Shown piece by piece: positions 1 through 30,392 of a DNA stretch of 40,579 nt; within the stretch, counting starts at the first letter, position 1, and every line of letters begins with the position of its first letter. This DNA comes from an uncultured delta proteobacterium (lineage in GTDB: Bacteria; Myxococcota_A; UBA9160; JAFDET01), in the NCBI GenBank assembly GCA_947260035.1, contig CAMYOO010000001.1:1-40579 (forward strand), read 5' to 3'. The position numbers were made by a program, and so were the translations under genes. The notes beneath the pieces are model-generated. The model saw only the letters and a program-made list of their open reading frames with translations. It made no database searches and was not told the DNA's origin.

Positions 1-29
1 CCGGCCCAGCGCTCCCTGCTGCATCGAGG

Positions 30-103
30 GCGCGCAGTGAGCCGCAGGCGAGCGTAGAGCGGACCCCCGCAAGGATGCGCGCGCAGTGAGCCGCAGGCGA
101 GCG
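30..103 (+). repeat. Two direct copies of a dispersed 25-bp repeat
   Basis: Bases 30-54 and 79-103 carry the same 25-bp word, which begins GCGCGCAGTGAGCC and ends AGGCGAGCG, 49 bp apart. The word recurs perfectly on the opposite strand at 29250-29274, and with one mismatch at 29654-29678, inside the large palindrome. The first copy here extends its match to 29 bp (26-54). These are intergenic and lie just upstream of the first gene. The recurrence is directly visible; that they belong to a genome-wide repeat family is inference. Confidence 0.85.
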
Positions 104-135
104 GAGGGCATTGCCCTGCCAAGGATTGCCCCTGC

Positions 136-28862: not shown

Positions 28863-29189
28863 ATGGCAGAAGTGCACGACGTCACCGATCAGAACTTCGA
28901 AGCCGAGGTGCTTCAATCCGACAAGCCGACCGTGGTCGACTTCTGGGCGGAGTGGTGCGCTCCGTGCCGCCAGATTGCTCCGATCGTCAAGGAGCTGGCA
29001 AACCAGTACGGCGACCAGGTGAACATCGTCAAGGTGGACGTGGACTCCAACCCGGCCATCGCAGGCCGCTACGGAGTGCGCTCGATCCCGACGGTGCTCG
29101 GCATCTCCGGCGGCCAGGTCGTAGACCAGCTCGTCGGCGCCCGCCCCAAGGCCGACTTCGAAGCGATGGTCAAGAAGCTGATGGCCTGA
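28863..29189 (+). CDS. trxA: Thioredoxin
   Basis: A 108-residue thioredoxin, a cytoplasmic protein-disulfide reductant. The active site is Cys32-Ala-Pro-Cys35 in VDFWAEWCAPCRQIAP; the usual form is CGPC, and CAPC variants occur in other bacteria. The cis-Pro loop RYGVRSIPTVLGISGGQVV follows. It has no signal peptide, unlike its upstream partner. GAGG-rich sequence lies upstream of the ATG. It is followed by hairpins and then the large palindrome. Confidence 0.95.
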   Translation: MAEVHDVTDQNFEAEVLQSDKPTVVDFWAEWCAPCRQIAPIVKELANQYGDQVNIVKVDVDSNPAIAGRYGVRSIPTVLGISGGQVVDQLVGARPKADFEAMVKKLMA

Positions 29190-29196
29190 GGCCGGA

Positions 29197-29219
29197 GCTG
29201 CGCACGCAGCCCCGGGGCT
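29197..29219 (+). terminator. Hairpins after trxA
   Basis: GCTGCG (29197-29202) and CGCAGC (29205-29210) form a tight hairpin. It overlaps the perfect 12-bp palindrome AGCCCCGGGGCT (29208-29219). Only a weak run of T follows (CTATTCTT). A terminator for trxA is plausible; the large palindrome next to it might do the same. Confidence 0.45.
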
Positions 29220-29226
29220 CGCGGCT

Positions 29227-29701
29227 ATTCTTGGCCGGCCGAGGCCCTTCGCTCGCCTGCGGCTCACTGCGCGCCCTCACCCAGCTCCGGAGCTCGCGCA
29301 CACTCGAATGCTTCGGGCTTGCGGGCCATAGACTCGGGCAACGCAACGGTTCGAGGTGGGGCTACGGCCAGCCTTGGCCGGCCGAGGCCACGAGCTACGG
29401 AGCCGGGGCGGTGGGTGGGGGCCCCGTGCTCAAACAGTCCTCGCCGGATGCCGCTTCGCGATGTGTTCGGATTGCGGCGGCCGGCTGCGGAACTGCGCGC
29501 GGGACCCCCACCCACCGCCCCGACTCCTTGCGTGCATCTCCTGAACACGAGGCACGCCAGGTCGCAGCCCCACCTCGAACCGTTGCGGTGCGCGAGCCTA
29601 TGGCCCGCAAGCCCGAGGCGAATGACTCCGCATGGGCTCCGGGTCTGACGAGGGCGCGCAGTGAGCCGAAGGCGAGCGAAGGGCCTCGGCCGGCTAAGAA
29701 T
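29227..29701. repeat. 475-bp imperfect palindrome filling the trxA-HAD intergenic region
   Basis: The whole stretch between trxA and the HAD gene reads nearly the same on both strands about a centre at 29464. Outer arms 29227-29278 and 29650-29701 match at 50 of 52 positions; middle blocks 29311-29363 and 29566-29618 at 49 of 53; inner blocks 29399-29426 and 29500-29527 at 26 of 28. The segments between are more diverged, and about 73 bases (29427-29499) are left as the loop. The left arm also holds CTTGGCCGGCCGAGG twice (29230-29244, 29373-29387). The right end includes the last eight bases of the HAD gene. The arms contain the 25-bp repeat also found at 30-103. No transposase, clear target duplication or convincing gene is inside. 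Confidence 0.85.
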
Positions 29702-30392
29702 TGGGCGGGTCGAAGAAGCGGACAGGCCAGCGCCTGCTGACAGCCGTGCGATACAAGAACGGGTCGGGATTGGTGACCACCGGGTGGCCCACCAGCTCGA
29801 GCAGCGGCATGTCGGTAATCGAGTCGGTGTAGAACCAGGACTTGGCCAGATCGATGCCCTGATCTTCGATGAACTGCTGGAGCCAGTAGATCTTGCCTTC
29901 CTCGAAGCAGATCGGCTCGATCACCCGGCCGGTGAACTTGCCGTCCTCCACCTCCATGCGCGTGTACAGGAAGTGGCGAATGCCCATGTGCTCGGCCAGC
30001 GGGCGCACCACGAAGCGCGTGGCGCCGGACACGATGGCCACCACGTGGCCCTTTTCGTGATGATCGCGAACGATGTCGTACGCCTCGGGGTAGATCGTGG
30101 GCGCCACCGCGTCCTTGAACCAGCGGTTCGCCTCGCGGGTCGTCGCCAGCTCACTCTGGCCCTTGAACCCCGCCATCATGTCCTTGGTCCAGCGATCGAT
30201 GTCGAGGACGCCGGCCTTGTAGCGCAGGTAGGCGCCCAGCCCCTTGACCAGATCCCAGGTACCCAGCTCGCCCTTCTCGTACTGGTACTTCACGAACAGC
30301 GTGCCCGAGTTCTCCGACAGGATGGTCTTGTCCATGTCGAAGAAGGCGCCGATCCGGGGCCCGGCATCGGGATCGCGCTTGCGGGGAGCCAT
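29694..30392 (-). CDS. HAD superfamily IB hydrolase (SerB-like phosphatase)
   Basis: A 232-residue HAD phosphatase of the IB group. Motif I is Asp19-Met-Asp21-Lys-Thr in GAFFDMDKTILSENSGTLFV, motif II is VAIVSGATRFVVRPL, and the acidic motif near the end is FYTDSITDMPLLELVGHPVV. SerB-like members act on small phosphate esters; the substrate here is not known. It lies 36 bp after rodA, so it may be in the mre transcript, though TAGAAT six bases before its ATG suggests its own start. The stop codon lies within the outer arm of the large palindrome. Confidence 0.9.
   Translation of the reverse strand: MAPRKRDPDAGPRIGAFFDMDKTILSENSGTLFVKYQYEKGELGTWDLVKGLGAYLRYKAGVLDIDRWTKDMMAGFKGQSELATTREANRWFKDAVAPTIYPEAYDIVRDHHEKGHVVAIVSGATRFVVRPLAEHMGIRHFLYTRMEVEDGKFTGRVIEPICFEEGKIYWLQQFIEDQGIDLAKSWFYTDSITDMPLLELVGHPVVTNPDPFLYRTAVSRRWPVRFFDPPNS

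Follow-up and report, generated by a model that had tools for sequence, protein, structure and literature searches.

Between the convergent genes for thioredoxin (trxA) and a HAD-family hydrolase, an uncultured delta proteobacterium carries a 475-bp imperfect palindrome which, judged from its sequence, is a head-to-head pair of ~140-nt repeat copies around a hairpin repeat, R2. The copies belong to a dispersed family of intergenic repeats, most probably mobile and forming a new REP/BIME-like group, served by a putative mobiliser acting in trans. In a limited, targeted literature search for such repeats the family appears to be undescribed. Coordinates refer to the window, that is the whole 40,579-nucleotide stretch of DNA that was analysed, a contig of a metagenome-assembled genome (MAG).

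Anatomy of the palindrome

The outermost inverted arms (29227–29278 and 29650–29701) are complementary at 50 of 52 positions (96 %) around a centre at 29464. A second pair (29282–29376 and 29553–29647; 78 %) contains a 49/53 block and is centred at 29464.5, and a third (29399–29432 and 29494–29527; 88 %) has its centre at 29463. Across the palindrome, ungapped arm identity amounts to 109/237, against a mean of 70 and a maximum of 85 after shuffling. The 475-bp palindrome reported in the first-pass annotation of this DNA is real, and its 50/52 and 49/53 blocks were recovered; the third block, given there as 26/28, yielded 25/28 in the placements tested, and the single centre proposed at 29464 holds to within 1.5 bp. 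Also present is the 25-bp direct repeat that had been placed in the arms (D1, 29222–29246 and 29365–29389, 88 % identity).

Each arm corresponds to one repeat unit of the B type. The left unit (29227–29367, plus strand), whose 5' edge ATTCTTGG faces trxA, matches positions 1–140 of a covariance model of the unit, R1, with 135.1 bits. The right, inverted unit (29562–29701, minus strand) matches the same model positions with 134.4 bits and has an orthologous copy in the sister genome. Both hold an exact match to the pattern of a 27-nt conserved core, hairpin H2, at 29247–29273 on the plus strand (0 expected in shuffles) and at 29655–29681 on the minus strand. Selection had been suggested to keep the arms equal in length, an assumption that becomes unnecessary once each arm is recognised as a single copy of a repeat whose length is fixed.

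The extra copy of the unit 5' end (CTTGGCCGGCCGAGGCC, 29365–29389, plus strand) is the second member of D1, and a weak R1 match extends over 29370–29449 (18.7 bits, E 0.027); this copy is possibly the remnant of a third unit. The locus is thus a mosaic of unit (+), possible remnant, R2 and unit (−). It is bordered by trxA (28863–29189, plus strand; Pfam PF00085, 1.1e-32) and by the HAD gene (29694–30392, minus strand; Pfam PF12710, 7.9e-42), relatives of whose product are found in deltaproteobacterial/Myxococcota MAGs. The end of the HAD frame, at 29694, falls within the right unit, and the CTTAG of that unit gives the gene its TAG stop.

The central module R2 (29391–29535, no strand assigned) consists of a variable outer stem around conserved CCCGTGCTCAAACAGTCCTCGCCGGA ... 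CCGGCTGCGGAACTGCGCGCGGG. When it is aligned with 14 other copies from its own and other genomes (four genomes in all), conserved CCCGTGCTCARACAGTCCTCG and CTGCGGAACTGCGCGCGGG flank a variable loop, and the outer stem changes yet stays complementary. R2 is a low-copy repeat: this genome (G000) has three copies, the sister genome G002 and G027 have seven each, and G001, G035 and G040 have fewer. The flanks of the loop are very conserved in sequence, and R2 copies (L316–L327, L055) often begin ~30–65 nt past a gene 3' end, in sense orientation. R2 may be a separate functional element.

A dispersed repeat family

Searched at the DNA level with the whole palindrome, the genome gives more than 100 matches, a figure that over-counts because each unit matches both arms. 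With R1, ~93 units are counted in this 4.58-Mb genome at E 0.01 or better; the sister genome has at least 53, and G003 has 31 weaker ones. The consensus, ATYCTTAGGCGGCCGAGCCCCTYCGCTCGCCTWCGGCTCACTGCGCGCCCTCG-(~34 variable)-GGCTCGGGCTTGCGGGCCATAGGCTCGG-(~22 variable)-GGTAGGGCTRCGG, is ~140 nt long, its conserved blocks being separated by variable spacers of nearly fixed length. Most units in G000 are solo, with about nine inward-facing pairs, namely the one between trxA and HAD and about eight at other loci. Of 379 Myxococcota genomes, 34 contain the core pattern and none contains its reversed control; distant relatives have the repeat as ~45-nt units, solo or in tandem. Tandem direct arrays of the core are seen in other genomes at L207 (19–248, four units of ~68 nt) and L208 (1180–1296, three units of 45 nt).

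The left end of the contig itself holds two more partial or tandem units (9–126, minus strand), with cores at 31–57 and 80–106 and model matches at 52–126 (57 bits) and, weakly, at 9–51. Several other contigs of this MAG likewise end in units or R2, repeats that probably break the assembly.

Viral contigs, phages and plasmids gave no match to the repeat, hence there is no sign of a phage- or plasmid-borne element. The earlier suggestion of a non-autonomous mobile element is supported by the many dispersed copies and by differences in their presence, absence and orientation between close relatives. Lack of any other copy, together with lack of covariation, had been named as grounds for abandoning the first reading of the palindrome; the family is multi-copy, and its dyads covary.

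Position relative to genes

With gene calls from a home-made codon-usage caller run on short-read MAG contigs, none of the 67 units with context falls inside a called gene, and within 50 bp of the 5' edge of a unit there is a gene 3' end in 33 cases and a gene 5' end in 4. For 11 genes at these units, the TAG of the CTTAG is itself the stop codon, and in distant relatives the core can start 0–4 nt past the stop codon.

Such a strong orientation bias, with units often abutting stop codons, is what would be expected of a functional 3'-end element, either a bidirectional terminator or an mRNA stabiliser. Each gene would carry its own 3'-UTR signal, and a palindrome would result where two convergent genes have one each. 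We consider this explanation unlikely. The terminator that had also been suggested finds no backing, since no intrinsic terminator (a GC-rich hairpin followed by a T-tract) was detected in 29100–29800. Moreover, a genome of 4.6 Mb has only ~93 copies, close relatives differ by gain, loss or orientation of units, and single units fold no better than shuffles. Finally, known mobile REPs are placed alike (PMC3733652).

Turnover between relatives

The trxA–HAD synteny is widely conserved and the content of the gap varies. In the closest genome (L077 of G002, HAD 95 % identical) the gap contains R2 and the right unit but lacks the left one, and in G003 (L078) it measures 4 bp and has no insert. At L091, L099 and L105 unrelated long inverted repeats occupy the same gap. 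It looks as if palindromic elements of different kinds had repeatedly landed in this convergent gap.

Another locus has + and − units in G000, and of two sister contigs one has the + unit only and the other the − unit only; these contigs may stem from two strains, because the G002 MAG has 7 % contamination. The unit at L221 is absent from the sister genome. An empty-site search in the sister genome returned mostly sites that were changed or had lost part of their sequence; it gave no clean empty site whose junction could be read unambiguously. The two trxA–HAD arms are mutual nearest relatives (0.83 identity) among the 101 units compared, which fits local duplication or gene conversion, so that the gene conversion proposed at the outset is plausible alongside duplication.

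Inverted pairs of this kind could also be MITEs of a cut-and-paste (DDE) transposon, with the arms as long terminal inverted repeats (TIRs), for the palindromic composites of 300–475 bp share the outer ends AT(C/T)CTTAG and the two differing arm types recall left and right TIRs. However, most units are solo, not paired, and distant relatives have the solo or tandem ~45-nt unit. In addition, eight composites showed no sign of target-site duplication, their longest direct repeats averaging 2.75 versus 2.73 in mismatched controls, and the genes checked between neighbouring units are household or of unknown function, with no transposases among them. A MITE origin is thus very unlikely.

Covarying dyads and folding

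Among 42 units, three short helices covary (8–10/17–19, 43–53/88–98 and 101–103/136–138). Position pair 9:18 is GC in 30 units and CG in 12, 10:17 is CG in 39 and AU in 3, and 49:92 is CG in 31, GC in 10 and UG in 1; likewise, 53:88 is found as GC31/CG9/AU1 and 102:137 as CG38/UA4. The covariation score is 0.189 versus 0.044 in shuffles (0/500) and at most 0.052 in slid controls. Cells altered on both sides number 42 versus 11 in shuffles, although such cells count related copies rather than independent events and their numbers are inflated by kinship. Pair-count and pair-type measures are weaker on the same units (26/500 and 319/500). In a set of 163 cores that includes distant genomes, compensating changes appear within the conserved 27 nt as well: pair 30:36 is CG in 156 and GC in 6, and 26:40 is CG in 91 and TA in 15 but also CA in 48 and TT in 7. 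The hairpin 3' of the core, of 5–13 pairs, varies in sequence among lineages and keeps its pairing. G-U (or G-T) pairs make up only one of 489 pair cells in the covarying hairpins, which argues for dyads at the level of DNA rather than RNA.

The palindrome folded as one strand is equalled by 0 of 100 shuffles (z about −24), and on either strand the full trxA–HAD region folds much more strongly than its shuffles. Together with the covariation of its parts, this could point to one large structured RNA encoded between the two genes, as had been suggested. However, the very strong fold is due to the presence of two inverted copies and is expected of any inverted pair; single units have mean z values of −0.3 and −0.1 on the two strands, and an apparent strand preference in folding energy vanished against shuffles. 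The covariance models of Rfam gave no match at the gathering threshold and only miRNA-like matches far below the cut-off. Considering also the near absence of G-U pairs and a sister genome devoid of the left arm, we regard the RNA as extremely improbable.

An assembly artefact, in the form of a chimeric inverted duplication, would be in keeping with a fragmented MAG of 480 contigs, several of them ending in these repeats, and with a left arm known from this assembly only, but this possibility, which had been listed as a potential refutation, has next to no likelihood since the arms differ at 4–22 % of positions, the right arm and centre recur at this locus in the independent sister MAG, and pairs of the same kind exist at about eight other loci.

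Mobilisation and proposed mechanism

Mobilisation by a known Y1 (RAYT) gene was considered as a candidate and is not supported. No units were found near the Y1 transposase genes of G000–G003, the draft genomes being incomplete, and at the Y1 locus of G022 (L240) one core lies at the far edge of the locus. The core-rich genomes G048, G169, G332 and G004 have no Y1_Tnp match, and G010 has seven such matches and no core; core content therefore does not track Y1 genes. Two Y1 genes of G000 are flanked by inverted repeats of their own, GGGACGTTCC-type at L125 (1287–1389/2292–2394) and GCAACTAAAGGGACAGTCCCTTTAGTTG-type at L126 (944–971/1926–1953). A GGGACAGTCCC repeat also adjoins some units (L016, L023, L027, L075).

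We infer that mobile units spread by being copied into gene ends, where insertion would cost the gene little, as a stop codon is provided by the end of the unit itself. An inverted pair would form when a gap that already has one copy gains another by insertion or duplication; at trxA–HAD the right arm was probably the source of the left one, through local duplication or gene conversion. It is probably in the form of DNA that the dyads are maintained, as single-stranded or cruciform hairpins recognised by a trans-acting mobilising enzyme, as in the case of REP and RAYT, and any influence on the ends of the trxA and HAD mRNAs would be a by-product. It is possible, if doubtful, that the family is copied by a machinery so far unconnected with intergenic repeats and used across part of the Myxococcota; the conserved 27-nt core and its changing, perfectly paired hairpin would then be the recognition unit of a putative enzyme other than RAYT, or of a SINE-like process templated by RNA.

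The family adds a dispersed repeat to a large and almost uncultured branch of the Myxococcota, and for a number of genes it probably sets the stop codon and the C-terminus. Different genera share its core, but the palindrome next to it is rewritten from lineage to lineage. With a conserved anchor adjoining a dyad that changes freely, one can ask what maintains the pairing and which enzyme reads the anchor.

Comparison with known systems

Known REPs adjoin the 3' ends of ORFs, provide them with TAG stop codons and occur as HH dimers (PMC3733652). The present family resembles REP/BIME elements and REPINs in all these respects, with dozens of intergenic copies, and also in its heterodimers, tandem groups and linkage to other palindromes (PMC3733652). 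Its 93 dispersed units are mostly extragenic and near gene 3' ends (0/67 inside genes; 33 vs 4). Inverted pairs, which in a REPIN would move as one, number about nine in G000 and coexist with solos, and at one locus relatives keep only one unit or the other. Unlike REPs, which measure 20–40 nt, the unit here is ~140 nt long, has a 5' tag ATYCTTAG and contains a core of 27 nt common across genera. REPs are also recognised by a terminal GTAG or CGTC beside a hairpin, which the units do not show consistently: the outer end is CTTAG (TTAG and hairpin H1), and the inner end, on the reverse strand, is CGTAG, CGCAG, CTAAG or CTCAG next to H4, so that GTAG occurs in some copies only. Nor did the draft genomes examined yield a cognate RAYT (Y1 transposase) gene with the repeat on its flanks. 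The repeat works like REP/BIME elements and is REP-like rather than an established REP.

The TIR repeats of RAYT-like (TIRYT) transposases are similarly dispersed, self-complementary and arranged in dimers or clusters (PMC3733652). In contrast, the two Y1 genes of this genome that were examined carry GGGACGTTCC- and GGGACAGTCCC-type inverted repeats without the present unit. NEMIS/Correia elements, grouped here with ERIC and RU, are likewise intergenic, mobile-looking and of similar size range. The ERIC and RU repeats (103–168 bp) resemble our unit in size range, intergenic location and mobile appearance (PMC2759123). The unit has no Rfam match, and it is by description that ERIC and RU are set apart from it: the 140-nt unit is no end-to-end palindrome, and the long palindrome is formed by two inverted units.
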